Source: Candidatus Saccharimonadota bacterium (GTDB lineage Bacteria; Patescibacteriota; Saccharimonadia; Saccharimonadales; Saccharimonadaceae). From it: a stretch of 45,367 nucleotides of DNA. Every line of letters starts with the position of its first letter. Positions within the stretch are counted from its first letter, which is position 1. The stretch is taken from NCBI GenBank assembly GCA_030529095.1, contig JAUMXN010000003.1:1-45367 (forward strand), given 5' to 3'. Below the pieces are notes generated by a model. That model was not told where the DNA came from and ran no database searches. It saw only the letters and a program-made list of their open reading frames with translations. The position numbers and the translations under genes were made by a program. This document shows positions 11,454 to 28,108 of this stretch, piece by piece.

Positions 11454-11470
11454 ACTTACTCCGAGTTAAA

Positions 11471-11487
11471 CGTGTATATTATACACG
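11471..11487. promoter_or_regulatory. palindromic operator over the uvrA -10
   Basis: CGTGTATATTATACACG is an inverted repeat with perfect 8-base arms around a single central base. It fully covers the uvrA -10 box, as a repressor site would. It matches neither the E. coli nor the Bacillus LexA box. Confidence 0.55.
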
Positions 11488-11506
11488 AGATTCGGGGATT
11501 TTTCAA
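11478..11506 (-). promoter_or_regulatory. sigma-70 promoter of uvrA
   Basis: Minus strand TTGAAA (11506-11501), 17-base spacer, TATAAT (11483-11478). Confidence 0.85.
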
Positions 11507-11517
11507 GGGGTAAGAGG

Positions 11518-12168: not shown

Positions 12169-12193
12169 TTCGTCTTTCCCCTCCACCGCAAAG

Positions 12194-12222
12194 AGGATAA
12201 CAAAAATTTTTGGCGTTTGCAA
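12194..12222 (-). promoter_or_regulatory. possible promoter of the racemase-like gene
   Basis: Minus strand TTGCAA (12222-12217), 17-base spacer, TATCCT (12199-12194). The -10 is weak. The rest of the 166-base gap holds only the divergent GtrA promoter. Confidence 0.4.
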
Positions 12223-12318
12223 CGACGATTTTCGAGAAATGAAACACTTTGTTCCATTTCGGCCAAAAAAGTCCAATTTTGGGCAAAAAATTGGCAAAAA
12301 TGCGCATGAAGGCGGTCA

Positions 12319-12327
12319 TGGTATAAT
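12319..12327 (+). promoter_or_regulatory. extended -10 promoter, leaderless start of gtrA-like gene
   Basis: TGG-TATAAT; the TATAAT (12322-12327) ends 7 bases before the ATG at 12335. Confidence 0.7.
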
Positions 12328-12334
12328 AAAAAGC

Positions 12335-12838
12335 ATGGAAAAAGAAGCAGCGCAAAAAGAATCAAGAAAAGAAACTAAAACAACCGTAAGGGTTGGGAAG
12401 TTTGCAATTATCGGTGCGATTTTGGCGCTGTTTAACTTTGTGGTTTACACGTCACTCGCAAGGCTGTTCTTTAAAGACAATAGTTGGCTATGGCTGGATT
12501 CGGCGATTTCATATGCTATTGCAGCAATTTTGGCATATATTTTGCACTCGAAAATTACCTGGAAAGAGCGCCCGGTAACCAAGCGCGGCATAGTAATGTT
12601 CTTCGTTTGGAACGGCGTGATGGTATTTGTTTCCCTTGGGCTAACTTGGCTATTTGGTAAAATTACACCGCTTTATGAGTTCGCGTACAATATTTCGTCC
12701 GCAATTCATTTACCGTTTGATTACGCGTTCGTAGAAAGCACGGGAATTTTTGGGCTAACCACAGCGGTAGCGATGGTGTTGAATTATATTTTCTATGACA
12801 AGTTAGTATTTGGTGACAAAAACAAAGCTAAGAAATAG
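12335..12838 (+). CDS. GtrA family membrane protein
   Basis: 167 residues with four predicted transmembrane helices. It has the GtrA pattern: a charged N-terminus, VGKFAIIGAILALFNFVVYT as helix 1, SYAIAAILAYILHSKITW as helix 2 with its N/H-K-x-T-W/F-like end, and a final helix MVLNYIFYDKLVFGDK. GtrA proteins are thought to move or flip lipid-linked sugars (undecaprenyl-phosphate-glucose type) in surface polysaccharide modification. The start is set by the promoter; the longer upstream open frame would cross it. It converges on the glycosyltransferase cluster and overlaps its last gene by 11 bases. Confidence 0.85.
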   Translation: MEKEAAQKESRKETKTTVRVGKFAIIGAILALFNFVVYTSLARLFFKDNSWLWLDSAISYAIAAILAYILHSKITWKERPVTKRGIVMFFVWNGVMVFVSLGLTWLFGKITPLYEFAYNISSAIHLPFDYAFVESTGIFGLTTAVAMVLNYIFYDKLVFGDKNKAKK

Positions 12839-13820
12839 CACCGTAGATTTTCCAGGCGGCAGAGAAAATTGGTTTTCCAAGCTTGAGAGTAAATAGAGCA
12901 AGCTTGTCACGTTTAGTAGCTTCCTTATTGGCTTTAATCCAGGATCTATGCTCCATGATGTAATCTTTTTGTTCATGCCAAATCTTAAGTTCTTTGGTAG
13001 TGAGTTTGCCCTTGGCGGCGAGCATGCGGAGAATTGAAAAACGAGCGTGTAGGCGCCTGAGGTTCGTGGTGTCTTTGAGCTTGCCGAATGTGGCGTCGAT
13101 TTCGTCACACATCTTGTCGGTGAGAGTAATGAGGTCAAGTTTTTGCTCAGTGAATTTTTTGTGACTGATCGATTCTTCTTTCATGCGGTAATAGTATTTT
13201 GGTTTGGACCCGTAGGTGATGCGACCGCCTTTTTTGTAAGCACTTAAGAACAGTTTGTATGTGGTGCCGACGTCTTCGTGGAGTTTACCCTCTGGGAATT
13301 TAACATTATCGAAAAGATCTTTTTTGAATAATTTAACTGTGGATTGTAGGTTAAAGCCTTTTTCGTTTAGCATACTATCTAGGCCGTCTTCAATGCTCAT
13401 GACGCGAGTTTTATAGACGCCGTCATTGAAGTCTTTTTGATGTTTTTCATCTTTATACTCGATGTGCGAACAGGCTGATATGAGGATATCTCGGTCTTTT
13501 TTGATGAGGCCGTAGAGATACTCAATGGCGTCATCAGCTAAGAAATCATCACCGTCTAGAAATGCAATATATTTGCCGGTGGCTTTTTTGATACCGATGT
13601 TGCGAGCGGCGGAAAGACCTTGGTTTTTTTGATCAATAATAACCGCTCTTGGATCTGATGAGGTGAGTTCTTTAAGTAGCGATAATGAATTGTCGGTAGA
13701 ACCATCATTAATAAAAATTAATTCTAGGTTTGAAAAAGTTTGCTTTTTGAGGGAGTCATAGCAGTCTCGCAAAAGCTCGCCGGTATTATAGACAGGAATA
13801 ATGATTGAAATTTTATCCAT
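12828..13820 (-). CDS. glycosyltransferase family 2
   Basis: 330 residues. GT-A fold: ISIIIPVYNTGELLRDC at the start, nucleotide-binding INDGSTDNS (residues 37-45), NQGLSAARNIGIKKATG, and the metal-binding LDGDD at 88-92. The C-terminal 130 residues are basic and helical. It should transfer a sugar from a nucleotide-sugar to a growing surface glycan at the inner membrane face; donor and acceptor are unknown. Its start lies within the end of the upstream glycosyltransferase (8-base overlap), so translation is coupled. Confidence 0.9.
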   Translation of the reverse strand: MDKISIIIPVYNTGELLRDCYDSLKKQTFSNLELIFINDGSTDNSLSLLKELTSSDPRAVIIDQKNQGLSAARNIGIKKATGKYIAFLDGDDFLADDAIEYLYGLIKKDRDILISACSHIEYKDEKHQKDFNDGVYKTRVMSIEDGLDSMLNEKGFNLQSTVKLFKKDLFDNVKFPEGKLHEDVGTTYKLFLSAYKKGGRITYGSKPKYYYRMKEESISHKKFTEQKLDLITLTDKMCDEIDATFGKLKDTTNLRRLHARFSILRMLAAKGKLTTKELKIWHEQKDYIMEHRSWIKANKEATKRDKLALFTLKLGKPIFSAAWKIYGAIS

Positions 13821-14625
13821 ACTTAATTTTGATCCAGGAGAGTCTCCATTTTAAATAAATCTTGCGAAGCAGACGTTTTTCGGTGGCAGTTGGTTGGCCA
13901 ACCCAAGCTTTGAGATTTTTAAATGCTCTTTGCCAGTTAGCCCAGACGCCTTCAAGCTTTTTGACCGAACTAGTCTCCGTACCATAATTATAGATATAGA
14001 GCGGTTCCAAAACAAATTTAATTTCGCCGCTAGCCGCGCTAAGGTAATCTAGGACGAATTTAGTGTCTTCGGCGAATTTGAGGGTTTCGTCAAAATGAAT
14101 ATCATTCTTTCTGACGATGTCACTTCTAAACATCTTGTTAAACACTGGGTACATGCGGCCATCATGAATGAGGCTACGGAGAACATAGGTGGTGAGTTTT
14201 TCATTTGGTTTTTTATTAAACTCATCAAGATAAACATTACGAACAAGGCCAGTTGAAAGTTTCTTGTGACAAATACCAGTGGCGGCAAGCGCAATTTCTG
14301 GTTTGTTTATGGCGGAGACAAGTTTTTCGATAAAGGTTTTAGTGATACTATCGTCCGAATCAATGAAAGAAATTAATTCCCCGCTAGCTTTTTTGATACC
14401 ATAGTTCCTGGCGGACGAAGCGCCGCTGTTTGGCTTGCTGAATATTTTGACTTTTTTACTGTTGATTTTTTGCAAAATCTTTAAAGAATCATCCTGGGAG
14501 CCATCATCAACAACAACAATCTCTAGGTCTTGATAAGTTCCAGCCAAAAGTTCATCAACGACACGAACCGCCTCGCTGCCGGTGTTATAAACTGGGATAA
14601 TGACTGAGACCAGTGGACTGGACAT
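13813..14625 (-). CDS. glycosyltransferase family 2
   Basis: 270 residues. VSVIIPVYNTGSEAVRVVDE, VVDDGSQDDS (39-48), NSGASSARNYGIKKASG and FIDSDDS at 87-93 define a GT2 catalytic domain; the DSDD motif replaces the commoner DGDD. A basic C-terminal region ends KWRLSWIKIKYG. It has TATAAT ending 6 bases before the ATG and no Shine-Dalgarno, so it starts a new, probably leaderless, two-gene transcript within the cluster. Confidence 0.9.
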   Translation of the reverse strand: MSSPLVSVIIPVYNTGSEAVRVVDELLAGTYQDLEIVVVDDGSQDDSLKILQKINSKKVKIFSKPNSGASSARNYGIKKASGELISFIDSDDSITKTFIEKLVSAINKPEIALAATGICHKKLSTGLVRNVYLDEFNKKPNEKLTTYVLRSLIHDGRMYPVFNKMFRSDIVRKNDIHFDETLKFAEDTKFVLDYLSAASGEIKFVLEPLYIYNYGTETSSVKKLEGVWANWQRAFKNLKAWVGQPTATEKRLLRKIYLKWRLSWIKIKYG

Positions 14626-14631
14626 AGTTAT

Positions 14632-14637
14632 ATTATA
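14632..14637 (-). promoter_or_regulatory. -10 box, leaderless start of 13813-14625 GT2
   Basis: Minus strand TATAAT followed by 6 bases and the ATG; it sits in the 14-base gap between two glycosyltransferase genes. Confidence 0.6.
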
Positions 14638-14639
14638 GT

Positions 14640-15578
14640 TTAATGCTTGATTTTACGAAAGACGCGGTAAAAAGCGCCGCCGCCTTTCGTAGCAAGATTG
14701 ATATAGGTCTTGAGTTTCGTGGTGATAAATTGGTTTTTGAATAATCGTTGCTTGTTTTCGGTGAGCCAATCGGTATATTTTACGGTGTCGCCAGACATTT
14801 TGCCGGAAATAATGTTGTTTAAGAAGGCAAAAACGGTGAGAAGCTCGGCAATTTCGGCGGCGGCAAAAAGTTTCGGATCAGAAGCAAAATGCTCTTTGGC
14901 CTCGAGGGAAGCTTCCATTTTAATGTCTAGATGTTCAGAAACGGAGATAGTTTGCATGATGCTGTTTTGGCGCTGGACATAGTAGTAGAGTGGGTCACTA
15001 ATACGAGCAACTTTTTTTGCCTTGGCTAAAACTTTATAAGTCGTAAGGTTATCTTCGTGTTTTTTGCCAAGTGGAAACTCAATATCATTAAATAGTTCTC
15101 TCTTGTATAACTTATTCCAAGATACGACCATATAGTCTTCTTGGTTGGTAAGTAGATCAATCGTGGCGTCTTCACCGGAATAGATTTTTGGTTCCGGGAG
15201 AATGTTTTTGCTGCCTGGGAAAATCTGATAGCCGCAAATGACGATATCAGCATCCGCAAGATTGTCGTAAAGCTTCTCAACCATGTTTGGTTTGATAAAA
15301 TCATCACCATCAACAAACGCAACAAAATCACCGGTGGCGGTCTTAAGCCCAACGTTGCGAGCGGCAGAAAGGCCAGCGTTGGTTTGATGAATTACTTTGA
15401 CACGTTTGTCGGATTTTTTGTAGTGATCGCAAATAGCGCCGGTGGCATCAGTGGAACCGTCATCAACAATAACGACCTCTAGATTTTGATAGGTCTGGCC
15501 AATAATGGACTTTAAACATTGGTCCAGGTATTCGGCGACGTTGTATGCCGCGACTAAAATAGAAATCTTAGGCTTCAT
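14640..15578 (-). CDS. glycosyltransferase family 2
   Basis: 312 residues. ISILVAAYNVAEYLDQCL, VDDGSTDAT (39-47), NAGLSAARNVGLKTATG and VDGDD at 89-93 form the GT2 catalytic core. The middle part (WNKLYKRELF, GKKHEDNLTTYKVLAKAKKV, YYYVQRQNSIM) is typical of polysaccharide GT2 enzymes and similar to the 12828 paralogue. It overlaps the end of galE by 11 bases and is translated in the same operon. Confidence 0.9.
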   Translation of the reverse strand: MKPKISILVAAYNVAEYLDQCLKSIIGQTYQNLEVVIVDDGSTDATGAICDHYKKSDKRVKVIHQTNAGLSAARNVGLKTATGDFVAFVDGDDFIKPNMVEKLYDNLADADIVICGYQIFPGSKNILPEPKIYSGEDATIDLLTNQEDYMVVSWNKLYKRELFNDIEFPLGKKHEDNLTTYKVLAKAKKVARISDPLYYYVQRQNSIMQTISVSEHLDIKMEASLEAKEHFASDPKLFAAAEIAELLTVFAFLNNIISGKMSGDTVKYTDWLTENKQRLFKNQFITTKLKTYINLATKGGGAFYRVFRKIKH

Positions 15579-16572
15579 GGCTACTTAAAAACTTTAATGT
15601 ATCGCGCATCGCGTCATCGATGGTAAGTTCGGTTTTCCAGTTTAGCTCTCGCTCAGCTTTGCTTGGATCGGCATAAACTTCGGCAATATCGCCAGGGCGG
15701 CGAGGAGCTTCTACACATGGCAAAGCTTTGCCGCTGGCTTTTTCGAAGGCAGTAACCATTTCGCGAACCGAAGTTCCCCTACCGGTACCAAGATTGTAAA
15801 TCGAAGCGCCTGGTTTCATGTGTTCAGCGGCAGCAATGTGGCCTTTGGCAAGGTCCACTACGTGAATGTAGTCACGAATACCGGTGCCATCTGGAGTCGG
15901 ATAATCGGTCCCGCAGATTTGAAGTTGTGGAATTTTTCCCTTTGCAACTTTCATAATGATTGGCATAAGATTTAGTGGAATACCATTTGGATCTTCGCCA
16001 ATGATACCAGATTCGTGGTTACCGATAGGATTGAAGTAGCGCAAAATAGTACAGCTAAACTCCGGGTCTGAATCGGCAACGTCTTTTAAGATCTCCTCAA
16101 TCATATATTTGGTTTCGCCGTAAGGGTTGGTGATACCCTGGCCGGTAACCATAGTTTCGTCAAGTTTGGACTTTTCCTGAGTGCCATAAACCGTAGCCGA
16201 AGAAGAGAAAATAATTTTGTGTACACCGTGTTCTTTCATGCATTCGAGCAAATTAATGGTGCCGCTAATATTGTTTTCATAATATTCGAGCGGTTTTTCG
16301 ATTGATTCTGGGACAGCTTTGAGACCGGCAAAGTGGATAACTAAACCGTATCGGCGTTCACTGAATATTTTTTCGAGAGCCTCTTTGTCTCTAATATCAA
16401 CTTTAAACAGTTCTGGTTTTTTGCCAGTAATTTTTTCAACGCCGTCTAGAATCTCGGCTTTAGAATTGCAGAGATTGTCGACAACATCGACTTCGTAACC
16501 TTTGTTATGTAATTCAACGATTGTGTGGGAACCAATAAAACCGGTACCGCCTGTAACTAAAACTCTTTCCAT
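15568..16572 (-). CDS. galE: UDP-glucose 4-epimerase
   Basis: 334 residues, normal length. The NAD-binding TGGTGFIGSH (7-16), SSSATVYG (123-130) and active-site YGETK (Tyr151, Lys155) are intact, as are the substrate region RYFNPIGNHESG and RDYIHVVDLAKGH. It converts UDP-glucose to UDP-galactose, the substrate of the nearby mutase-like protein and possible donor for the glycosyltransferases. TATAAT ends 6 bases before the ATG with no Shine-Dalgarno. It leads the galE-GT2 transcript and is divergent from the ABC exporter genes. Confidence 0.96.
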   Translation of the reverse strand: MERVLVTGGTGFIGSHTIVELHNKGYEVDVVDNLCNSKAEILDGVEKITGKKPELFKVDIRDKEALEKIFSERRYGLVIHFAGLKAVPESIEKPLEYYENNISGTINLLECMKEHGVHKIIFSSSATVYGTQEKSKLDETMVTGQGITNPYGETKYMIEEILKDVADSDPEFSCTILRYFNPIGNHESGIIGEDPNGIPLNLMPIIMKVAKGKIPQLQICGTDYPTPDGTGIRDYIHVVDLAKGHIAAAEHMKPGASIYNLGTGRGTSVREMVTAFEKASGKALPCVEAPRRPGDIAEVYADPSKAERELNWKTELTIDDAMRDTLKFLSSHEA

Positions 16573-16578
16573 AGATTA

Positions 16579-16587
16579 ATTATAGCA
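16579..16587 (-). promoter_or_regulatory. extended -10 promoter, leaderless start of galE
   Basis: Minus strand TGC-TATAAT; the box (16584-16579) ends 6 bases before the ATG. Confidence 0.7.
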
Positions 16588-16614
16588 AAATTAGACGTTA
16601 GGGGCTGTAGTTTG

Positions 16615-16623
16615 TGGTAGAAT
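16615..16623 (+). promoter_or_regulatory. extended -10 promoter of the exporter operon
   Basis: TGG-TAGAAT with no clear -35; transcription should begin near 16630. Confidence 0.5.
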
Positions 16624-16646
16624 ATATAAATATAGAAGCCAATAAA

Positions 16647-16679
16647 ACTCGACGCCGACAAAAAAATAGTCGGACGAGT
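16647..16679 (+). other. hairpin in the 5' leader of the exporter operon
   Basis: ACTCG (16647-16651) pairs with CGAGT (16675-16679), and CCGAC (16655-16659) with GTCGG (16669-16673), around an A-rich loop. No T run follows, so it is not a terminator. It ends 20 bases before the ATG. Confidence 0.55.
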
Positions 16680-16699
16680 AGAAATTAAGAAGAAATAAG

Positions 16700-17512
16700 A
16701 TGAGTATACCGCGTATATTTATTAAGAAAAACAGGGTTCTCTTGAGAGAACTAACAAAAACTGATTTCAAACTACGCTACCAGGGGTCTGTATTAGGGTA
16801 TTTATGGGCACTATTGAAACCCTTACTAATGTTCGCTATTCTTTATGTAGTATTTGTAAAATTCTTTAAGTGGGGTGGTGACATCCCCCACTACGCCGTC
16901 TATCTTTTGACCGGAACAGTGATGTGGAATTTCTTTATGGAGTCTACTAACCAAGGCATCCATGCAATAGTGATGCGCGGTGATCTTTTGCGCAAAATCA
17001 GTTTTCCCAAATATATTGTAGTGGTATCAGCGACTTTGACCGCCGTGATCAACGTCTTGATTAACTTGGTCGTTATAATAATTTTCGCATTGATTAATGG
17101 CGTAACACCATCTTTGTCATGGTTACTAGTACCGCTCTCTATATTGGAGCTCTATGTTTTATCATTGGGTATCGCCTTCCTTCTTGGAGCGATCAACGTT
17201 AAATACCGCGATATTTCTTCGATTTGGGAGGTTTTTACGCAAGCGTTGTTCTATGCCGTACCAATCATTTATCCAATTTCAATGGTTGCGGCTACGAGCC
17301 AAAAAGCAGCTAAAATACTGCTTCTTAATCCAATCGCTCAGTCCATCCAAGACATTAGGTACAATCTCGTAACTGACCAAACCATTACTGCTTGGAATTA
17401 TATTCACCGCGAGTGGATTTGCATAATACCAATCATCTTGGTAGTCGTTGTAACATTCCTGGCTGCATTATATTTTAGAAAAAAATCTAAGTTCTTTGCG
17501 GAGGAGGTCTAA
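16700..17512 (+). CDS. ABC-2 type polysaccharide exporter permease (Wzm/TagG-like)
   Basis: 270 residues with six hydrophobic helices. The start RELTKTDFKLRYQGSVLGYLWALLKPL is the diagnostic N-terminal segment of the Wzm/TagG/RfbA family, and VKYRDISSIWEVFTQALFYAVPIIYP lies in the second half. With the ATPase encoded next it should carry lipid-linked polysaccharide across the membrane. The start lacks a strong ribosome site (AAGAAG about 10 bases upstream). The two-gene operon runs opposite to the surrounding glycosyltransferases. Confidence 0.93.
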   Translation: MSIPRIFIKKNRVLLRELTKTDFKLRYQGSVLGYLWALLKPLLMFAILYVVFVKFFKWGGDIPHYAVYLLTGTVMWNFFMESTNQGIHAIVMRGDLLRKISFPKYIVVVSATLTAVINVLINLVVIIIFALINGVTPSLSWLLVPLSILELYVLSLGIAFLLGAINVKYRDISSIWEVFTQALFYAVPIIYPISMVAATSQKAAKILLLNPIAQSIQDIRYNLVTDQTITAWNYIHREWICIIPIILVVVVTFLAALYFRKKSKFFAEEV

Positions 17513-17513
17513 A

Positions 17514-18290
17514 ATGAAGCGTCCGTTTATCGATCGTGAATTAATCAATGACGAAAACAATGAAAATGCTATCGTCGTTAAAAATCTTTACAAGAGTTTT
17601 ATGCTCCCAACGGAAAAATCTTGGGGTTTGAAACAAGCTATTTTTAATCGCCTACGCGGCATAAAGGGCTATCATAACCAAGAAGTTTTAAAAGATATTT
17701 CTTTTGCGGTTAAGCGTGGGGAGTTTGTTGGTATCGTAGGCCGTAACGGTTCTGGCAAATCGACGTTGCTAAAGACTTTGGCCGGCATTTATTGCCCGGA
17801 AAAAGGAGCCATTACTATAAACGGCAATCTTGTCCCCTTTATTGAGCTCGGTGTAGGCTTTAACCCGGAATTAACTGGTAGGGAGAATGTTTATCTGAAT
17901 GGCGCTATGCTTGGTTTTTCTAACGCCGAGATGGATCAAATGTATGATGAAATTTGGGAGTTTGCAGAATTGAGGGATTTTCAAGATCAAAAACTCAAAA
18001 ATTATTCTTCTGGCATGCAGGTGCGTTTGGCCTTTTCGATTGCGATCCGCGCAAAGGGCGACATCTTGTTACTTGATGAAGTGTTAGCCGTTGGCGATGC
18101 GGCGTTCCAACAAAAGTGCAATGACTTTTTTGCTTCATTACACGGCAAACAGACAGTGATTTTGGTTACCCATTCGATGGCTGCTGTTGAAAAGTTTTGC
18201 GATAGAGCCATTTTAATCGACGGTGGTAAAATAGCTCTCGATGGTAGTCCAAAGAAAGTAGCGAAAGCCTACAATAAACTCTGGGGTTAA
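17514..18290 (+). CDS. polysaccharide exporter ATPase (Wzt/TagH-like)
   Basis: 258 residues. Walker A GRNGSGKST (76-84), signature SSGMQ (165-169) and Walker B ILLLDEV followed by LAVGD (184-194), all with the sequence style of the Wzt/TagH family (SGMQVRLAFSIA). It ends soon after the ATPase domain, so it lacks the C-terminal carbohydrate-binding domain used by some Wzt proteins to check the chain end. GGAGG precedes the ATG; one base separates it from the permease stop. It overlaps the convergent GT4 gene by 4 bases. Confidence 0.93.
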   Translation: MKRPFIDRELINDENNENAIVVKNLYKSFMLPTEKSWGLKQAIFNRLRGIKGYHNQEVLKDISFAVKRGEFVGIVGRNGSGKSTLLKTLAGIYCPEKGAITINGNLVPFIELGVGFNPELTGRENVYLNGAMLGFSNAEMDQMYDEIWEFAELRDFQDQKLKNYSSGMQVRLAFSIAIRAKGDILLLDEVLAVGDAAFQQKCNDFFASLHGKQTVILVTHSMAAVEKFCDRAILIDGGKIALDGSPKKVAKAYNKLWG

Positions 18291-19405
18291 TCATCCAGGA
18301 GTGGCAAAAATTGATCCTTGATGATTTTTTTCAAATCAAATTTTTCTTGATATATTTGGCGCGCTGCCGTTCCATACTCTTTACATAGTTTTTGATTGGT
18401 CACTAATTTTAGAATCGCCTGCTCAAGCTCGTCAACATTCTTCGGTCGAATCAGAATACCGTTTTTGCCGTTTTTAATCACCTCCGGAGTACCACCAACC
18501 CCTGTAGCAATTATTGCCTTCCCCATCATGGAAGCTTCCAGCATAGATAAACTAAGCCCTTCCATATATGACGGTAGGACAAAAATATCATAGTCTGATA
18601 CGGCATTGATATTGTCGTCAACTTGTCCATGAAAAGTCACTCCGTCAATTTTGGTGGGTTGTCTGAATTTACTGTCGTCGCCATATAGATCGAGTGTAAT
18701 ATTTTTAAAACGTTTTTTAACCCTAACAAATGCCTCTAATAGCTCGTTAATCCCCTTGCTAGCTTCGATACGGCCAATATAATATAGTTTTTGCTTCGCA
18801 GCTGGCATTTTCTTGAAAGCATCTTTTACGCCATTATACAAAACTGTTGTATTTTCAATATGTTTAGTGCTTTTTAATGATCTAAAATAACTATAGTCAT
18901 AGTTGCTGACAAAAATTATTTTATACGCATATTTTGCACACTTTAGAACCTTTTTGGCAATAAAATTTTTATACCATATGTCAACGTTGTTTAAGACCCA
19001 GTTACGAAAATCTGCATGATCGGTCCAAATAACTTTTAGCTGTAGCCGCTTTGCAGCAACAGTGGCAGCGATCCAGTCGTCACGAGATTGGACATCGATT
19101 GTCGCCCCTGTGTGTTCCAGAAACAGTTGCTTATACCATTTACGTAAGCGTCTTTGCCATCGCCAGTAAAGTGGCATCAGAATAATCTTTTTTCCACTCC
19201 AGTTTTGCCTCTTATTATATGGGGCTTCTATGGCTGAAACGTTGTGTTTTTTTGCTTCTACCAACAACTTCTTTGACGACGTGACAATGATGGGGGATAT
19301 ATTGTATTCTTTTAATTCTTTTGCGAGCTGCAACTGGTATACTTCCCCACCACCATACGCATCTGGGTCGACATTTCTGATTAGAAGTATTTCTTTACGC
19401 TTCAT
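18287..19405 (-). CDS. glycosyltransferase family 4 (GT-B fold)
   Basis: 372 residues. The N-terminal YGGGEVYQLQLAKELKEY is the acceptor-side loop of GT4 enzymes. The C-terminal half has VLYNGVKDAF, YYIGRIEASKGINELLEAF and the E-x7-E region SYMEGLSLSMLEASMMGK, followed by GGTPEVIKNGKNGIL. It transfers a sugar with retention of configuration from a nucleotide-sugar. It overlaps the upstream flavoprotein gene by 11 bases, so it belongs to that operon. It lies in the A+T-rich part of the locus. Confidence 0.92.
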   Translation of the reverse strand: MKRKEILLIRNVDPDAYGGGEVYQLQLAKELKEYNISPIIVTSSKKLLVEAKKHNVSAIEAPYNKRQNWSGKKIILMPLYWRWQRRLRKWYKQLFLEHTGATIDVQSRDDWIAATVAAKRLQLKVIWTDHADFRNWVLNNVDIWYKNFIAKKVLKCAKYAYKIIFVSNYDYSYFRSLKSTKHIENTTVLYNGVKDAFKKMPAAKQKLYYIGRIEASKGINELLEAFVRVKKRFKNITLDLYGDDSKFRQPTKIDGVTFHGQVDDNINAVSDYDIFVLPSYMEGLSLSMLEASMMGKAIIATGVGGTPEVIKNGKNGILIRPKNVDELEQAILKLVTNQKLCKEYGTAARQIYQEKFDLKKIIKDQFLPLLDD

Positions 19406-20675
19406 CTTTTATCGTTTTAGTTATATTTTCCGCCATTGTCATACAATCTTCCATTGAATTGTACGTCCAGCTTCCATAGCGCCCAGTATTAAAAATGCGC
19501 TTTTTTCTAAGCTCTTGTAAGATGTTTTCAACTGTAGCTTTTTCGGTATTCGAAATATGGACATAAGCTGGGTCCATGACGAGAGTGCATGAATCCATAA
19601 GCTTCATGTCATCATCAATAATCCCCACCTTTTTCATGCCCTCAAGAGTCTCTTTTAGCTCCTTCTCGATATCAATTTGGTCGTTTTTGGAGAAGCCTAT
19701 TTCGACATAAACGCTTAGTTTGTCTTGGTTTAGGATGTTGTCATAAAAACCAATGCGATAAAAGTTGAGCTTTTTGTCTGGGAAATATATCCAATGTTCT
19801 TTTTTGAAATTTGGTGATTTCTTATCGAAACCGAGATTGAACACCAACACTTTGTTGTAGGAGAGTTTTTTAGACAACTCCTGATACTCTATATTGTTTG
19901 AAAGCCTAAGAAATAGATTAAATGGAATTGAGCTAATGAGGTTATCGAATCCATACACTTCGCCGTCTTCGGTTGTGACTGTTTTGTTCTCTATATCAAT
20001 AGTTTTGACCGTAGTATTGTAGAGTATTTTGTCTTGAGGAATTTTTTCGACAAGCTTATCGATGAAATACCCCGTGCCTTTTTTAAGATATAAGAACTCG
20101 TCATTATAGGTTGAAGCGCGATTACCTTTCATATTTCTGATAATCGCATCGAAGTCTGCATATGGGAAGAATCTGCCCATAGCATCTTTGTCGAGTAACT
20201 GGAGATCGGTAGCGTAAAGCTTCTCGTTGTATGGCTTAAGAAATTTTTCGGTCGTAGCACGCCCAAATTTTCCATATAACATATCAAGAAAACTACTATA
20301 TTCGTCTTTACTTTCTTTAGTATATAAATCATACAAGCATTCAATAAAGTCTTCTTTTGGCAACTGATGAATATTCATCTGAAATGGATATTCGATAAGT
20401 GTCCCATTGTATAAAATTTTCGTATTCTTCTTACTATAAACAATCTCTTCCGGCTCAACCATTGAGGCAAACAGCTTCTGATATTTTTCTGTCTGAAAAT
20501 GGTAGAAGTGTCCAGCATAGTCCCATACATACACTGGATTAGCAATAGTGCGGCAATAGCCACCGGCAGTATTATCTTTTTCCAAAATTAAATAGTCTGC
20601 ATTTTCACCTAAGAATAGTGCAGCGGACAGCCCAGAAAGGCCGCCACCTAAAATAAGGGTTTTGACTCTTTTCAT
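19395..20675 (-). CDS. FAD-dependent UDP-galactopyranose mutase-like protein
   Basis: 426 residues. It has the FAD-binding LILGGGLSGLSAALFL (residues 7-22) and EKDNTAGGYCRTI. YVWDYAGHFYHFQTEKYQKL corresponds to the HKYGPHIFHT region of UDP-galactopyranose mutases. FLKPYNEKLYATDLQLLD and LKKGTGYFIDKL follow the pattern of the broader amine-oxidase/protoporphyrinogen-oxidase group. With galE nearby, conversion of UDP-galactopyranose to the furanose form is a sensible guess, but a different sugar-nucleotide oxidoreductase is possible. TAAAAT ends 7 bases before the ATG; no Shine-Dalgarno. Confidence 0.72.
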   Translation of the reverse strand: MKRVKTLILGGGLSGLSAALFLGENADYLILEKDNTAGGYCRTIANPVYVWDYAGHFYHFQTEKYQKLFASMVEPEEIVYSKKNTKILYNGTLIEYPFQMNIHQLPKEDFIECLYDLYTKESKDEYSSFLDMLYGKFGRATTEKFLKPYNEKLYATDLQLLDKDAMGRFFPYADFDAIIRNMKGNRASTYNDEFLYLKKGTGYFIDKLVEKIPQDKILYNTTVKTIDIENKTVTTEDGEVYGFDNLISSIPFNLFLRLSNNIEYQELSKKLSYNKVLVFNLGFDKKSPNFKKEHWIYFPDKKLNFYRIGFYDNILNQDKLSVYVEIGFSKNDQIDIEKELKETLEGMKKVGIIDDDMKLMDSCTLVMDPAYVHISNTEKATVENILQELRKKRIFNTGRYGSWTYNSMEDCMTMAENITKTIKDEA

Positions 20676-20682
20676 ATCTTAT

Positions 20683-20691
20683 ATTTTACCA
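20683..20691 (-). promoter_or_regulatory. extended -10 promoter, leaderless start of mutase-like gene
   Basis: Minus strand TGG-TAAAAT ending 7 bases before the ATG, in the 19-base gap after the 20695 gene. Confidence 0.55.
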
Positions 20692-20694
20692 CTT

Positions 20695-21630
20695 TTATTT
20701 GATTAATGCACCTTTGGTGAGACGATGGATAATGATTCTTCTACCTGCGATGTTTTTATTTTTGTAAAAGCTCGGGTATTTTTTTAATGCAGAGTCGAAG
20801 GCGCAAAAGTCTTGACGACTTTTTTTGTTCCAAATGGCCGTTCGATATTGCAAATAGCAGAGGCCGACTATGCGTTTTTCAACAATCTTCGATCGGATAT
20901 TACCCAATTGACCTTTATGTTTTTCATAAAAACCTAGTAGATTTAAACAAATTTTTTCATGGTCTTTGATATGTTTAGCCATACTAGCATGGGAAATTGA
21001 CTGGTCACTAGAGCCAACGTTATAAATATAGATTGGTGCACTAATATAGGAAGCTGTCGCAGCATACAATGTACACCAAAAATCATATTCTTGATCGTCG
21101 TAGTATACTTTTTCAGTAAGTTTTATTTTTTTAATAAGGTCTGTCTTGACGGTAATGAATGGCAGCATAATTCCCTCTGTACCGTTTAGCGCATCGTCTA
21201 TAGCAATGTTTTTGAACTCTGCCTTGTCGCTCCAAGAGACGGTTTTAGTTTGCTTATTTTTTTCAAAATAGTTTGAGAAGATTATGTCGCTATTTTCGTT
21301 TTCTAGCTCTTTGATAAGCAAATCGAGGTTTTTACCGTTCATAGCATCATCGCCATCTAATACCCTAAAATATTTTCCGTGGGCCCTGCTAATTCCAGAA
21401 TTAACTGCACCGCCATGGCCACGATTGTCCTGGTTGATGACAACTATGTTTGTCACCCCTTTGGCGATTTTTTCGATGACGGCTTGACTATTGTCGGTTG
21501 AACCGTCGTTCACGATAATCACTTCTATTTTGCCAAAACATTCAGTATGTTTAATAGAATCAACAGCGGCTTTTATAGTTTTGGCCGAATTATATGCCGT
21601 GATAACTATCGTGAGAATATATTTGCCCAT
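20695..21630 (-). CDS. glycosyltransferase family 2
   Basis: 311 residues. LTIVITAYNSAKTIKAAVDS, IIVNDGSTDNS (38-48), NRGHGGAVNSGISRAHGK and LDGDD at 91-95 form the catalytic domain. The C-terminal half (GSSDQSISHASM, ALKKYPSFYKNKNIAGRR) closely parallels the C-terminal GT2 domain of the neighbouring 855-residue protein, so the two look like duplicates. It starts 3 bases after that gene and is co-transcribed. A and T dominate its codon third positions, as in the rest of this stretch. Confidence 0.9.
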   Translation of the reverse strand: MGKYILTIVITAYNSAKTIKAAVDSIKHTECFGKIEVIIVNDGSTDNSQAVIEKIAKGVTNIVVINQDNRGHGGAVNSGISRAHGKYFRVLDGDDAMNGKNLDLLIKELENENSDIIFSNYFEKNKQTKTVSWSDKAEFKNIAIDDALNGTEGIMLPFITVKTDLIKKIKLTEKVYYDDQEYDFWCTLYAATASYISAPIYIYNVGSSDQSISHASMAKHIKDHEKICLNLLGFYEKHKGQLGNIRSKIVEKRIVGLCYLQYRTAIWNKKSRQDFCAFDSALKKYPSFYKNKNIAGRRIIIHRLTKGALIK

Positions 21631-21633
21631 ACT

Positions 21634-24201
21634 TTAAAACTTCACTATCTTTTTCACCGTTTTTGCGCGGGTCCTAAGAGTAATATATGTTTTGCGGATA
21701 ATGAAATAAAGTATTTTATAGCGACGGAGACGTTTGACCGCACGAGGGGTTAGGTAGTCGTTTTTATAGTAGCGTGGATATTTTTTGAGCACTTTTTCAA
21801 TGTCGCGGAATTTTGAATATTTATTAAACATATCCAATGCAATATGGTATTGATGAGAAATGGTTTCATGAAGTTGTACACGCACAAAATGCTCATATTT
21901 TGCATCAGAAAGTTTTCCCTGTTCAAGAAGCTTAATAACTTCTTCGAGGACGCGAAGATGTTGATAGAAATTACGTTTATAACTTGCGTCAGATAAAGAT
22001 TGCCCGCTATCTCCAAGTGCATAATAGTAGAGTTCGACCGGATCAAGCATCGCCGTTTTGGCGGCCTCTGTCATGTAATAATTATATTCGATATCGACAT
22101 AGAAGCATTTTTCAGTTAACTCACAGTTGGCATTGCGCAAGTTTTCCGTCTTCGTAGAGGTGGTAGATAATACTGCACCATACCCAGGAAAGCCATACTT
22201 GTCGATACAAAGTTCGTCAAAATCGTAGATTACGCCAGGGGTCATAAAAGGATATTTATGGTCTGGGCGTAAAGTAGAATCGGTCATCCAGTCTTGAACC
22301 GTGTTTGTAAATACGATGTCCGCGTCAGTCTTGAGCAGCTTTTCAATATGCTGTTCCAGACTTTTACTGTCTAGGCGGTCGTCAGCATCCATAATGCGGA
22401 AATACTTTCCTGTAGCTGCGGCCAGCCCAGCGTTTACGGTTGACCCGTGTCCACCATTTTTCTTGTCGATAAACTTAATGGCATCACGCAGAGTGTTGCA
22501 AGAGTTTTTGATAAGCTTTTTAACGACCTCACTCGTATTGTCGGTTGAACCGTCGTTTACAATTATGATTTCTGTATGGTTGAGATGTTTTTGGTTTGCC
22601 AACGACTTTACTGCGTTGATAATATGTTCGCCAGCGTTATAGGTTGGAATTACAATCGACAGAATAGGCGATTGGCGTTTTTTGTTTCCTTCCGCCTTGA
22701 GCCTGTCGTTGCTTTTTGTTACAGATTTGATGAGTTCGATTTCTTTAGCGATGGCCGATTCCGAAGCATTCTTTTTTACACTATCGTGACATTCCTTGCA
22801 TTTTTTAGCAAAATATTTTTCATCTTCTACGAGTTTTTTAATAATTTCGACAGCCTCTTCGACATTGTCGTTGTCGAAAAAGGTGCCAATTTTTTCTGGT
22901 AATATGTCGGAGAGTCCGGTACCACGAGAAGCGACAACGGTCATACCAGACATAGCCGCTTCGCTTGCGGTTACACCCTGTGTATCGTAGCGTGATGGAG
23001 CAAGTAAAATGCCGTTTTCACCGAACACCCTGTCCATATCATCATTTTGGAAAAATGCGTTAATAATTTTTACGTTTTGAAATTTTTTGAGTGGAAAAAC
23101 CAACGCGTCTTGATAGTCGCCAGTGCCGGCTATCGTAATGTTTAATTTATTAAAAAACGGCTGCTTCGATAGCGCAAGAACAGTACGAACAGCAATATCC
23201 ACGGCGTATTGACGAAGGTTATCCATTTTTTTAAGAATTAGGATGTTGTATCTTTTTTCAGCGTCACGTTCTTGAAAGCTAAATAGTTGGTCGTCTATAA
23301 AACATGGAATAATGCTGTAGTTTGAAAAATTGATTCCGGTGGCTTTCTTTGCGTTTTCGTAGTTCCACTTCGTATTAAAAACCCAATGCACATTTGGCAT
23401 TTCATTGTATATACGTAGCGTTTTTAGGCGGTCTTGTTTCTCTTCATATTCTTCCGGTGAAAAAACCCTATCCTCGGAGAAATACTGACCAAAAATGTTT
23501 TGGTTGTACAGATCCACGTCTGCCCCATGACAGTAAATTATTACTTCGGTATCATCTAGATCGCAAGCCCGCACAGCGTTACCAATTTCTGAATCAAGAA
23601 AGTGGATAATAATTTTTTTGTAGTGATGTTTTCTAAGGATACTTCGAAGCTCGGCAAAAGAAACCTTATTGATGACATCGCCTCGAAAATCGTATCGATA
23701 GCTACGCTCATCATACTTGGAAACCACAACCACATCGGTAGAGATACCGTGCTGCTGATATTCTTTGTTTTTTGAATAAACAAAGGTCGCGGCGTAAGGA
23801 TTTGTAGCCGATGGATACATCGGGGTGATTATCAAAACGTCGTTCTTATATTCCTCATAATCTACGAAATCGTTGGTGCTTTGAGGCTTAATACTAAGTT
23901 CACCAATCTCGATTTTGGTTTTTGGGGGTATATAAATTGCCGCAAAATATCTTTTTGCGCTACCTCTTTCTCCCGGATTCGGGATTAAGCAAGAAGAGTT
24001 TATCGGTGCAATATTGGAAAAATCCTTTGTGATGTTGAATATTTTCACATAGACGTCTGGGTTTCCGGAAATAACTTTACCGTTAAAAACAATTTTAACG
24101 TATGGATCTAAAAGTTTAAAACTCTTCTTCAAAATAACTTTTTTAATACTATTTGAATTATTTTGCAGAACTCTTTTTTTCTTGATCAACTTATTTTTCA
24201 T
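21634..24201 (-). CDS. bifunctional glycosyltransferase, GT4 fused to GT2
   Basis: 855 residues in three parts. Residues 1-115 are a basic start plus a beta-rich segment of unknown role. Residues about 118-490 are a GT-B domain: VLIITPMYPSATNPYAATFV, ILLAPSRYDTQGVTASEAAMSG (the GT4 E-x7-E-like region) and SRGTGLSDILPEKIGTFF. From about 511 a GT2 domain follows: LSIVIPTYNAGEHI, IIIVNDGSTDNTS, NGGHGSTVNAGLAAATGK, and metal motif MDADD near 604. The fusion could add two sugars in sequence, for example a repeat unit. It overlaps the upstream pyruvyl transferase gene by 4 bases (ATGA). Confidence 0.9.
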   Translation of the reverse strand: MKNKLIKKKRVLQNNSNSIKKVILKKSFKLLDPYVKIVFNGKVISGNPDVYVKIFNITKDFSNIAPINSSCLIPNPGERGSAKRYFAAIYIPPKTKIEIGELSIKPQSTNDFVDYEEYKNDVLIITPMYPSATNPYAATFVYSKNKEYQQHGISTDVVVVSKYDERSYRYDFRGDVINKVSFAELRSILRKHHYKKIIIHFLDSEIGNAVRACDLDDTEVIIYCHGADVDLYNQNIFGQYFSEDRVFSPEEYEEKQDRLKTLRIYNEMPNVHWVFNTKWNYENAKKATGINFSNYSIIPCFIDDQLFSFQERDAEKRYNILILKKMDNLRQYAVDIAVRTVLALSKQPFFNKLNITIAGTGDYQDALVFPLKKFQNVKIINAFFQNDDMDRVFGENGILLAPSRYDTQGVTASEAAMSGMTVVASRGTGLSDILPEKIGTFFDNDNVEEAVEIIKKLVEDEKYFAKKCKECHDSVKKNASESAIAKEIELIKSVTKSNDRLKAEGNKKRQSPILSIVIPTYNAGEHIINAVKSLANQKHLNHTEIIIVNDGSTDNTSEVVKKLIKNSCNTLRDAIKFIDKKNGGHGSTVNAGLAAATGKYFRIMDADDRLDSKSLEQHIEKLLKTDADIVFTNTVQDWMTDSTLRPDHKYPFMTPGVIYDFDELCIDKYGFPGYGAVLSTTSTKTENLRNANCELTEKCFYVDIEYNYYMTEAAKTAMLDPVELYYYALGDSGQSLSDASYKRNFYQHLRVLEEVIKLLEQGKLSDAKYEHFVRVQLHETISHQYHIALDMFNKYSKFRDIEKVLKKYPRYYKNDYLTPRAVKRLRRYKILYFIIRKTYITLRTRAKTVKKIVKF

Positions 24202-25424
24202 TTTGTCAACACTTTCGTTTTCTTTATGATGGAATTGGTTTTTTTCTGAATTTTTTGCAATCTGCGCTTAGAAAATGGTCTATTTTTTTTCTTTAGCGCT
24301 CTCCTGAATGACCCTAAATAGTCGTGTCCTGCAGCTATTCGGTCAAAGTCTACTAGCTCTAGCTTGCGATTATATTTTTGTTTGATATAGTGTATTTTAT
24401 TCGGATAATGCCTGTGTTTTTTGCTATAATCTATCGCTAGAATTTTACACCCCAATACCGTTGCGATTAATATTGCATGGTAACGAGCTGAAATAATAAT
24501 ATCACATTCAGAGTAAATCTGGCAGAGTTGTCTTGCGCTGTTTGGGGCAGAAAGGACTATGGTGGGAGCATCCAAATGCTTTGCTAATCTTGCACAATAT
24601 TTTTGGTCATGGTTTTTGTATGTATAAAACGGGATTAATGACACTTCTATTTTTTTGCCAGTTAATCGTCCAGCTTCTTTCACGATGTCTGCGGAAAATT
24701 TTTGTATATCCGTAAATGAGTCTTCAGTATAAATATGTGCAAAGCCAATCCTAAAAACGTTTTTTCTCTCCTTCGGTTTCCAATTCTCAAAATTACAAGC
24801 TAGCGAAAGGTCGTCGATGATTTTAATTGGCCTAGTGTTAATGCCGGCCAATATAAGCGTGTATAAACTGTTTTCGTCCCTAAGAGAGAAATGTGTAGCG
24901 TTATCTATAATGTATTGCAGGTCACAAATAAATGCTTTGTTACTAATCTCCTGATTTGCGCTAACCCCTATCACTGAGGCACGACGTCCTTTTTCTATGA
25001 ATGTCTTTACGGTGTTCAAAAGAACGTATGCCATGGTGCTTTTTTCTCTTAGAAAAACATAGTCCGTATCGTCTATCATGGCGCCCCCACACAACATGAC
25101 GTTGCCAAATAGTTCTGCGAGCACAAGATAATCGCCTTTTTCTATCGGAAAATGAACGGTGGGATACGGGGCATAGTCGTTTGCTGGGGACTCATAGTTG
25201 TTAGAAAGCATAATGGTTGCTTTTTGTTTTTCTGATAGTTGTCTTATTACAGCTTCGAACATTAGTTCGTCGCCAACGTTTTTGGCTCCCAAAAAACCAC
25301 AGATAAGAACAGCCTCGCTATCTGGTTTTATCGAAGACAATAAGCGAAAATATTCGTCGGAAATTTTTTCTCCTCGGAACGTATGCTTGCGTGCCGTACT
25401 TTTTTTTGCTTTGACTACCTTCAT
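24198..25424 (-). CDS. polysaccharide pyruvyl transferase family protein
   Basis: 408 residues. ICGFLGAKNVGDELMFEAVI is the start motif of this family (GxxNxGDE), and IISARYHAILIATVLGCKILAIDYSKK is the conserved C-terminal core with the R-x-H motif. The family (CsaB/WcaK group) attaches pyruvate ketals to surface sugars; some members act in other sugar transfers. In CsaB-type systems pyruvylated wall polymer binds SLH proteins, but no SLH domain is seen here. The tail is rich in Lys. It is the first gene of the A+T-rich minus-strand operon with its own promoter. Confidence 0.85.
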   Translation of the reverse strand: MKVVKAKKSTARKHTFRGEKISDEYFRLLSSIKPDSEAVLICGFLGAKNVGDELMFEAVIRQLSEKQKATIMLSNNYESPANDYAPYPTVHFPIEKGDYLVLAELFGNVMLCGGAMIDDTDYVFLREKSTMAYVLLNTVKTFIEKGRRASVIGVSANQEISNKAFICDLQYIIDNATHFSLRDENSLYTLILAGINTRPIKIIDDLSLACNFENWKPKERKNVFRIGFAHIYTEDSFTDIQKFSADIVKEAGRLTGKKIEVSLIPFYTYKNHDQKYCARLAKHLDAPTIVLSAPNSARQLCQIYSECDIIISARYHAILIATVLGCKILAIDYSKKHRHYPNKIHYIKQKYNRKLELVDFDRIAAGHDYLGSFRRALKKKNRPFSKRRLQKIQKKTNSIIKKTKVLTK

Positions 25425-25436
25425 TTGTATCTGTTT

Positions 25437-25465
25437 ATTGTATACTTTTTTCTTTAAGTAGTCAA
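25437..25465 (-). promoter_or_regulatory. sigma-70 promoter of the pyruvyl transferase-glycosyltransferase operon
   Basis: Minus strand TTGACT (25465-25460), 17-base spacer, TACAAT (25442-25437); 12 bases remain to the ATG and there is no Shine-Dalgarno. Confidence 0.8.
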
Positions 25466-25466
25466 T

Positions 25467-27155
25467 TTAGGTTTCGTCTAATTCATAATCAATTACGCAT
25501 TTATTAGTGTTTCTCTCATAGTCGTATTCTGTTTTCAAACACCACGAACCGTCATCCATTTGGCTTTTTTGAACATATTTCCTTATCATACTCTCCGGAA
25601 GAATTAAACTCTCGTCCGTGTCGCCAGTAATAATATCTCGCTTATATGTTTGAACGTTCGTCTTGAGTTCCCGTGGATATTGCATCGGTTGCCAAACCTC
25701 TTCCAAACTACTGAGCGTTGCGCACTTGGCATTGTCAACGACCAAGCACCATTCACCCGTTGGCAACAACACTTTCTCTTTGAAGTATTTTTTGCCGTTA
25801 ATCATTTGTGCCGCATCGATTGATCCAGTTGTTTTTGAGTAATTAACGTATTTGGCGTTGTTAGCACGCATATATCTTGGAGTTTCTAGGCCGTATTTTA
25901 TAAACTCAACAGGCTTTATGTATTTTTCTGGGACGCATTGTTCGTGCCCAACCATAAAACACTTGTTTTGGCTTGGCAACACAATGAATTTGTCGATTAA
26001 GATTTCTTCGTCTTGGCCTGCAAATTCACTCCCACTATACCGGTTAACTTTAAGCGCTCCTCGTTCGACTCTGTAGTACAAAGCTTCGCTATATCGTTCA
26101 ACCCAATCAGTCTCTAATAAGTCGCTAATCAACACGCATCTATTTTTATTGGCTCTTTGATCAGCCTGGGTACGCAAACACCACTGATTATTTACTATTA
26201 TTTTGGAAGTATAAAAATCAACTTCTTTAGGTTGCTCATTAACAATCTCTTGCGTGTTGCCATTATACATAAATATTCCGTTTTTTGACTGAAATATTCT
26301 TTGCGTTTCCATACCGTACCAACCGGCGTCAGTAATCCCCCCGAACCAATCCTCAAAATATAGATAGAAGTTGCGGTTGCCGTAGGCGCCGCAGTAGGCG
26401 GTGCCGTAGCCGGCGGCGATGGCACCAGCGTTTGGCTGGTATGGAGTGTAGCGGTAAAGCGCTGAGGTGGCGAGGTTGCGAATGTTCACAATCGAGCCGC
26501 CACAGCCGGCGTTCGGATTGTACTGCACGTAGTTTTCACCAAGTGGGTAGTTAGTCCAGCCACCATCCAAGACTTCGCGGAAAAGCCAAGCGGCCTTTCT
26601 GATCTGGTTTTTAAATCCATAATATTTAGCGTCGCATGGAGCCGTGTCCGGGCAACCAAAGCCGGTCATGGCGCGATAATCATAATTATTCGGAATCGGA
26701 TCGGTGATGAGGCCGGATTCTTTTTGAATCAAAACTAGCAAAACTTGTGGGTTAATTCTGTATTCCTGGGCGGTTTCATAAATAATGCGAGCGGCGGTTT
26801 TGCCTTCGCCAATCGTGGTGCCTTCGCCAAATAATTCTTCGGAAATACAGACAAAGTGGTCGTCTTTCCAGTGCCAATAGACGCCCGGGTTGTTGGCTGT
26901 AAGCGATAGATAATAATCGTAGCTACGTTCGTTGCAAGGGTTTTTTCTGGTGAGGAAGGCCTGGATTTCGGCTTCGGACATCGAATTATAGTTGCTCATA
27001 GTATAGTCACTGATAATAAAGCCTGGGTCGAATTTAGAGAGGTCGGCAGCGTCGGCACTGTTAGAGCCGAGATGGCCAAGTAAAAACGACAAAGAAACTG
27101 CGGCGACAAAAACGCCGAGTGCGATAAATCTTATGCGGCGGTCGCGGCGCCTCAT
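25467..27155 (-). CDS. secreted lysozyme-like protein with Cys/Trp repeat tail
   Basis: 562 residues. Residues 1-36 are a signal peptide or signal anchor. Residues 44-70 (GFIISDYTMSNYNSMSEAEIQAFL) and 123-150, with AQEYRINPQVLLVLIQKESG and likely catalytic Glu146, match a lysozyme/transglycosylase-like module that I know from secreted actinobacterial proteins. From about residue 280 the tail holds repeated W/K-C-L/F...C units (NNQWCLRTQ, NKCFMVGHEQCVP, GEWCLVVDNAKCA, GSWCLKTEYD), probably disulfide-bonded. The tail is far richer in A+T than the first half. A role in cutting or binding a host wall is inference. It overlaps the upstream gene by ATGA. Confidence 0.75.
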   Translation of the reverse strand: MRRRDRRIRFIALGVFVAAVSLSFLLGHLGSNSADAADLSKFDPGFIISDYTMSNYNSMSEAEIQAFLTRKNPCNERSYDYYLSLTANNPGVYWHWKDDHFVCISEELFGEGTTIGEGKTAARIIYETAQEYRINPQVLLVLIQKESGLITDPIPNNYDYRAMTGFGCPDTAPCDAKYYGFKNQIRKAAWLFREVLDGGWTNYPLGENYVQYNPNAGCGGSIVNIRNLATSALYRYTPYQPNAGAIAAGYGTAYCGAYGNRNFYLYFEDWFGGITDAGWYGMETQRIFQSKNGIFMYNGNTQEIVNEQPKEVDFYTSKIIVNNQWCLRTQADQRANKNRCVLISDLLETDWVERYSEALYYRVERGALKVNRYSGSEFAGQDEEILIDKFIVLPSQNKCFMVGHEQCVPEKYIKPVEFIKYGLETPRYMRANNAKYVNYSKTTGSIDAAQMINGKKYFKEKVLLPTGEWCLVVDNAKCATLSSLEEVWQPMQYPRELKTNVQTYKRDIITGDTDESLILPESMIRKYVQKSQMDDGSWCLKTEYDYERNTNKCVIDYELDET

Positions 27156-27706
27156 AGGCTTAATTCCCCGCTAATTACTCCTGTTTTACCCTCGGATGAA
27201 AGTTCGATCGAGATTGCGAAATCGCCTGAGCCAACCACTGAGCGAGACAAATTAAATCCACTACAAGTGGAGGTTGAGACGTCGGCAATGAGGTCGGCCG
27301 AAACCGCATAGGCAACAGAGCCACCCTGCAGTAAATTAAGTTTGCAAGTGCCACCATCAACATATTGGTCGATATTGACGCGAATAATAATGCTGCTGTC
27401 CGTGGCGCCAGCGTATGTTACGACGCCGGTAAGATCGCCGCTGTCGTTCGGGTTGTTGCCATCATATTGGACGACCGGTTCTTTTTCGAGCGGTTGTTCG
27501 GCAACCTCGCCGCGGCCCTGATCTTGATTTTGGCCGGCTGATTTTTTGGCTGGATCTTGGGCCACAACGGACGAGGACGGAGTTGGTTCATCAACTTCTT
27601 TTGGCTGTGAAAAATATAGATATGCCAAAACTGCCATTACGCCAAGCGCAACAACAATTAGAATTCCAAAGATGATTTTTCCGCTTTTTCGTTTTTTTCT
27701 TCGCAT
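27152..27706 (-). CDS. hypothetical membrane-anchored protein with extracellular domain
   Basis: 184 residues. A basic start (MRRKKRKSGK) and one hydrophobic helix (about 11-32, ending AVLAYLYFSQ) leave the rest outside the membrane. Residues 35-85 are a Pro/Gln/Glu linker. The remaining 100 residues look like a beta-sandwich with two cysteines (GGTCKLNLLQGG and STCSGFNLS) that could form a disulfide. I do not recognise the family. GGAGG about 10 bases before the ATG sets the start. It shares an operon, with ATGA overlap, with the secreted lysozyme-like protein, so the two may work together at the surface. Confidence 0.7.
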   Translation of the reverse strand: MRRKKRKSGKIIFGILIVVALGVMAVLAYLYFSQPKEVDEPTPSSSVVAQDPAKKSAGQNQDQGRGEVAEQPLEKEPVVQYDGNNPNDSGDLTGVVTYAGATDSSIIIRVNIDQYVDGGTCKLNLLQGGSVAYAVSADLIADVSTSTCSGFNLSRSVVGSGDFAISIELSSEGKTGVISGELSL

Positions 27707-27718
27707 TGAGGTGGTCCT

Positions 27719-27738
27719 CCTGTTATAAGCATAACAGG
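27719..27738. promoter_or_regulatory. palindromic operator candidate upstream of the 27706 gene
   Basis: CCTGTTAT-AAGC-ATAACAGG, perfect 8-base arms around 4 bases. It covers the -10 box of the downstream operon and lies next to the end of the LexA-like regulator gene. In RNA it could also form a hairpin. Confidence 0.5.
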
Positions 27739-27756
27739 TTTGACCGGTAACGTCAA
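27728..27756 (-). promoter_or_regulatory. promoter of the 27706-25467 operon
   Basis: Minus strand TTGACG (27756-27751), 17-base spacer, TATGCT (27733-27728). Confidence 0.6.
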
Positions 27757-28091: not shown

Positions 28092-28092
28092 A

Positions 28093-28105: not shown

Positions 28106-28108
28106 ACA

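Follow-up and report, generated by a model that had tools for sequence, protein, structure and literature searches.

A Predicted Secreted Wall Enzyme of Saccharibacteria with Exchangeable Tails at the Edge of a Putative Surface-Glycan Cassette

Introduction

Cassette switching is known from capsule loci as well as S-layer loci. In Clostridioides difficile, the S-layer cassette with slpA is switched, up to the glycosylation cluster, as summarized in PMC8809339 (citing Dingle et al. 2013). SLH domains are retained on a pyruvylated secondary cell wall polymer that is made with CsaB (PMC6030368). The locus described here resembles both systems. Like the C. difficile S-layer cassettes, to the extent that the summary describes them, it comprises a hypervariable cassette between conserved flanks, presumably changed by recombination, in which a surface protein and its neighbours change together. 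Like the SLH/CsaB system, it encodes a putative retention repeat domain together with a polysaccharide pyruvyl transferase (PF04230). A literature search returned no report of an in-gene junction or of a pairing of tail and glycan enzyme, and nothing on this head-tail locus in Saccharibacteria.

The Saccharibacteria that have been brought into culture live on other bacteria, which raises the question of what determines their surface identity and their choice of partner. The window analysed here, the whole stretch of 45,367 nucleotides from a Candidatus Saccharimonadota bacterium, carries a gene for a predicted secreted protein whose head is constant and whose tail can be exchanged.

Results and Discussion

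Organization and Composition of the Head-Tail Gene

The gene, its parts and its upstream neighbour are the following:

25467..27155, minus strand: head-tail gene, an open reading frame of 562 aa, secreted (predicted)
26331..27155, minus strand: constant head, codons 1-275 (homology border, AlphaFold2 model, fold match)
25470..26330, minus strand: exchangeable tail, codons 276-562 (sequence and model; replaced in relatives)
26718..26720, minus strand: codon of Glu146, the candidate catalytic residue (Glu in all aligned heads)
27152..27703, minus strand: upstream partner gene, with a membrane helix and a beta-sandwich domain (model)

The original prediction, a chimeric secreted protein at 25467-27155, holds: the reading frame lies exactly there and joins a lysozyme-like head to a Cys/Trp tail. 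A search of the own genome gave one match, i.e., a single copy. Both hand counts of G+C in that prediction were exact, 75 of 120 at bases 26401-26520 in the head and 43 of 120 at 26101-26160 plus 26221-26280 in the tail. Over its full length, the head has a GC of 0.504 and a GC3 of 0.578, against 0.395 and 0.415 in the tail; the glycan genes adjoining the tail have a GC3 of 0.38-0.41. The shift was rejected as a peculiarity of this gene, as 79 of 103 members of the genus likewise have a higher GC3 in the head than in the tail; among the 103, the drop of the window gene ranks 7th.

The closest relative found, L152, shares 87% identity with the head over the match. In blastn, its similarity to the window (78% identity) extends across the upstream gene and the head and stops at 26331, codon 275; the tail that follows is of the LGFP kind, unrelated to that of the window. 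The border in composition is thus also the border in homology, and the shift had correctly been placed near 26330, at the domain border.

The partner gene overlaps the start of the head gene by ATGA. It lies immediately upstream of 177 of 192 heads, most commonly with a 4-base overlap, and was found by profile search upstream of 19 of 84 actinobacterial heads. Because it is common to both lineages, the unit of partner and head is either older than their split or was transferred together.

A Constant Head with a Predicted Lysozyme-Like Fold

The head is present in 156 of 199 genomes of the family and in 151 of 174 of the genus, and in 108 of the 110 genus genomes of at least 90% completeness and at most 5% contamination. 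Glu146, whose conservation had been put forward as a check, is invariant in 192/192 Saccharibacteria-type and 84/84 actinobacterial heads (276/276). Cysteines 103, 168, 174, 218 and 255 hardly vary in either group, and neither do several motifs.

No useful match of the window protein was obtained in Pfam, NCBIfam, PHROG or PDB sequences, and a head profile matched no solved structure among the PDB sequences. The AlphaFold2 model of the protein has a pLDDT of 89.5, with the head mostly above 90. The modelled head matches LytB (Z 9.6, rmsd 3.1, 141 aligned residues), AtlE (Z 7.9), goose lysozyme (5.3-5.9) and lytic transglycosylases (about 5-6), so that a lysozyme-superfamily fold is predicted. 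The head is GH73-like by fold yet is not classed in the curated GH73 family, because the window protein has no Pfam or NCBIfam match. The alignment with MltE starts at residue 120 of the head and 38 of MltE, and that with MltC at 121 and 192. Judged from these start positions, Glu146 would fall on the catalytic glutamate, which we take to be Glu64 in MltE and Glu217 in MltC, if the first 25 aligned residues contain no gap. The enzyme probably cleaves the glycan strands of the wall.

A hydrophobic helix spans residues 6-29, with a likely signal peptidase site near residue 36, and an A-x-A motif is present in 184 of 192 heads. The N-terminal signal peptide is likely cleaved, in which case the tail is the visible means of retention; the helix might also remain uncleaved in the membrane. 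No relative turned up among viral contigs, plasmids or phages, the viral scan consisting of exact peptide patterns of one sequence, which reach close relatives only; hence, there was no sign of a phage endolysin as the source.

When named genomes were scanned with a probe sequence together with relatives of the window, at least 591 confirmed head stretches were obtained, of which the best 80 are all from Actinomycetota, mostly Microbacteriaceae. Together with the fold matches, these homologues bear out the claim that the lysozyme-like module is common to secreted actinobacterial proteins. Within the Microbacteriaceae (L071-L150) the head family is widespread, with two neighbouring copies in L073, L080, L139 and L145. 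Actinobacterial heads carry many kinds of tail, and LGFP, KP repeats and DUF5648 are common to them and the Saccharibacteria-type heads; no SH3-like, ricin or ChW tail occurs among the 82 actinobacterial tails examined.

The Tail and Its Many Kinds

The tail of the window protein contains eight cysteines in four Cys/Trp repeats, at about residues 278-350, 351-417, 418-487 and 488-561 (limits set by eye), and is beta-rich throughout in the AlphaFold2 model. Residues 493-560, in the last repeat, match the teichoic-acid-binding domain of SlpA (Z 9.3, rmsd 2.2) and the SH3b domain of lysostaphin (Z 7.1-7.4), and the earlier repeats match those of internalin B and autolysin. The model thus points to an SH3-like fold. 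No Pfam match above the cut-off was found in the tails of the window, L070, L263, L042 and L053, and the window tail gave no match to the SLH domain of Pfam.

Among the 192 heads of the family, the tails form 13 sequence clusters by single linkage of phmmer matches, or 14 kinds with dockerin split off. The kinds named by Pfam are ricin-type lectin, LGFP, ChW, SLH, dockerin, DUF5648, FG-GAP, and B_lectin plus an Ig-like domain.

In five genomes (L237, L238, L239, L240 and L241), two head-tail genes stand close together; those of L239 carry different kinds of tail, ChW and ricin. Tails could be exchanged by way of such tandem copies. In 28 of the 192 head genes, the contig or locus ends on the tail side (e.g., L031, L033, L038, L041 and L044); assembly breaks in or next to the tail are expected at repeats or strain-variable DNA.

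Exchange of Tails between Close Relatives

The 107 heads on the tree of the genus bear six unrelated kinds of tail, with 43 changes of kind, compared to 56 when the labels are shuffled, a figure that counts related genomes, and a least possible number of 5. In close pairs with differing kinds of tail, similarity runs through the upstream genes and the head and is lost within ~12 nt of the head end. In close pairs with the same kind, it mostly carries on across the tail and further. The window and L307, both with SH3-like tails, nevertheless part at the head end, which indicates that subtypes of the SH3-like kind are exchanged as well. By these comparisons, tails have been exchanged repeatedly between close relatives. 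Comparing the two halves separately across relatives, as had been proposed, revealed a constant head with replaced tails, and no co-variation with uniform composition. The suggestion that a tail had been joined to an older enzyme stands as far as the different origin of the tail and the joint near 26330 are concerned; its one-time attachment gives way to repeated exchange. Site-specific recombination at the border was set aside as not needed, since homology merely stops there.

Many of the genomes searched are probably metagenome assemblies, and mixed-strain assemblies could break or misjoin at the head/tail border. The 28 head genes cut on the tail side indicate that assemblies often stop here. 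However, both conserved flanks and the unrelated middle lie on one contig in G181, G318, G303, G340 and others, the reading frame is continuous across the border, and the pattern recurs in many genomes, including named actinobacterial isolates. An assembly artefact is therefore very improbable.

A Cassette That Begins inside the Gene

The features of the window on the tail side of the gene are the following:

24198..25424, minus strand: polysaccharide pyruvyl transferase (PF04230), directly behind the tail (Pfam, E 2.9e-20)
13813..25424, no strand assigned: surface-glycan genes of the presumed cassette, i.e., glycosyltransferases, a flavin-dependent oxidoreductase, an ABC-2 exporter pair and an epimerase (Pfam)
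8553..13820, no strand assigned: conserved right flank with uvrA, gtrA and GT2 (similarity returns at the matching block in G181/G318; gtrA and GT2 annotation)

The extent of the exchange is best seen between G181 and G318. Their flanks are about 96% identical and enclose replaced middles of 12.6 and 14.7 kb. The difference begins at about codon 271 of the head, and close similarity returns at the GT2-gtrA-uvrA block. Besides the tail, the middle contains glycosyltransferases, galE and an ABC exporter for polysaccharide; between the two genomes, galE and the exporter are only about 72% identical and are arranged in a different order. Further pairs of close relatives likewise have conserved flanks around an unrelated replaced block. 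Since G181 and G318 differ from the head end through the glycan genes, the tail and the surface-polysaccharide genes swap as one cassette. What has been exchanged here is a surface-glycan cassette whose left border falls within a gene. In the window, the corresponding block would extend over about 13813-26330, its right border being taken from G181/G318.

The left homologous arm would be the shared head-coding sequence with the upstream genes, and the right arm the GT2-gtrA-uvrA block. Recombination between strains would then exchange tail and glycan genes in one step and thereby keep the enzyme fitted to the new coat.

Within the genus, the exchangeable locus lies near a block with lexA, LCP, jag, yidC, rnpA and dnaA (window 25467-33778), and this places the fast-changing surface cassette near the likely replication origin. 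Elsewhere in the window, a GGxxYMTSSGDxxKxxxAKxTILYxxIGL-type pattern recurs in four small proteins encoded at 75-1577 and 2942-3388; read by eye, these proteins resemble pilin-like type IV secretion subunits, and 35966-38389 may belong to the same type IV secretion-like system.

Pairing of SH3-Like Tails with Pyruvyl Transferases

PF04230 was searched in genomes sorted by kind of tail. A gene of this family lies at most 3 kb downstream of 24 of 37 SH3-like tails and of 3 of 127 others (Fisher p 2e-16, a plain figure that is inflated because tail and next gene are neighbours). Within 600 bp, the counts are 21 of 37 and 0 of 127. Of the remaining SH3-like tails, eight of the 37 are in genomes without a PF04230 gene, and in five the gene is farther away or upstream only; some SH3-like subtypes are without such a gene. 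Observed at first within the genus, the pairing recurred in other genera. The safer figure comes from independent pairs on well-supported branches, because the Fisher and shuffle numbers count related genomes: ~10.5 of 15 pairs agree and 0 oppose (median p 0.002).

The tail may also be a mere passenger of a glycan locus under diversifying selection, for example by phages, with no match between tail and glycan needed. Crossovers anywhere in the conserved left arm would give the same apparent junction, as homology stops at the head border, and the first gene behind most kinds of tail other than the SH3-like one is highly varied. This passive carriage is nevertheless improbable, as the SH3-like kind keeps its pyruvyl transferase while the other cassette genes shuffle, and the independent-pair test agrees with the pairing. 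Moreover, the 20 adjacent PF04230 enzymes form seven groups unlinked at 30% identity and stand in both orientations; the pairing is thus not one linked block that has spread.

A LicD gene was found within about 3 kb of ChW tails in three of 15 genomes, compared to 0 of 72 with other tails. These genes lie ~0.6 to 2.6 kb behind the ChW-tailed heads of G259, G201 and G271 (L271, L275 and L279), and the other tails examined have no LicD-family gene within 5 kb. LicD and ChW are a possible, weak second pair of tail and decoration. The remaining pairings of tail and gene within 3 kb are weak.

In five SLH-tailed genomes of the genus that were examined, PF04230 is absent. The classical SLH ligand would therefore not come from a PF04230 enzyme there, and a direct equivalence with SLH/CsaB was rejected.

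What the Tail May Hold

The tail would be the cell-surface-retention module of a secreted enzyme. Its coding sequence lies at one border of the exchangeable cassette for surface polysaccharide; the tail most likely binds the glycan that this cassette makes, and the ligand of the SH3-like kind is probably a pyruvylated surface glycan. This ligand is proposed because the pyruvylated polymer made by CsaB is the SLH ligand (PMC6030368). We consider the chances about evenly balanced that the tail keeps the wall enzyme on the glycan that the cell itself makes with this cassette, pyruvylated for the kind found in the window, and is swapped by recombination. More tentatively, and with somewhat less confidence, the cassette may bring its own reader domain, fused in frame to the constant enzyme, so that targeting and coat chemistry swap together. 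If so, the SH3-like tails would constitute a new class of pyruvylated-glycan binders, and other kinds of tail would read other decorations.

Alternatively, the tail could be a host-recognition module, with which the enzyme acts on the wall of an actinobacterial host, the kinds of tail following the host like the binding domains of phage endolysins. The joint swap would then arise because surface glycan and enzyme must both fit the partner. The wide choice of lectin-like and wall-binding tails and their very fast change are consistent with this, as are SLH tails without PF04230 in the same genome. In addition, essential dockerin, VCBS and FN3 proteins of Southlakia have been proposed to act on host glycans (PMC10633639). 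However, the tail swaps along with glycan genes of the producer and, after the probable signal cleavage, would be what retains the enzyme; the SH3-like kind is paired with the producer's own pyruvyl transferase gene, and the same head with changing tails occurs in Microbacteriaceae and other Actinobacteria, where 56 of 80 head loci contain glycan-related genes. Actinobacteria are mostly free-living, and we know of no bacterial host for those that carry the head. Recognition of a host is therefore rather unlikely, and on the sequence comparisons a role of the tail on the own surface appears to fit better than a target in the host wall.

The head-tail locus, nearly universal and close to dnaA, is a surface module that switches fast. 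It points to a large hydrolase-like family that is shared with Actinobacteria and unnamed in the family libraries searched. The predicted pairing of tail and glycan can be tested in an existing genetic system (PMC10633639).

Comparison with Known Systems

A constant N-terminus with an exchanged C-terminus and downstream genes is also the layout of polymorphic toxins. This class was rejected, since the swapped parts are putative binding repeats and glycan enzymes instead of toxin tips and immunity proteins. The combination of a glycan-cleaving fold with wall-binding repeats, here predicted from models, is shared with LytB, AtlE, lysostaphin and SlpA (repeats of the SH3b, GW and SLAP types). Unlike these modular hydrolases and endolysins, neither head nor tail of the window protein is matched by a sequence family, and orthologues at a single locus have had their tails exchanged. 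True homologues of the head are found in actinobacterial secreted proteins, which share several kinds of tail and, in part, the same upstream partner gene.

In contrast to the SLH/CsaB system, the repeats in the window are SH3-like, the enzyme gene follows the tail immediately and swaps along with it, and the ligand is putative. The C. difficile cassettes differ in other respects: the cassette of the window has its left border within the gene of a predicted, constant wall enzyme, in which unrelated kinds of domain take the place of the tail, and the partner genes are those for a surface polysaccharide.
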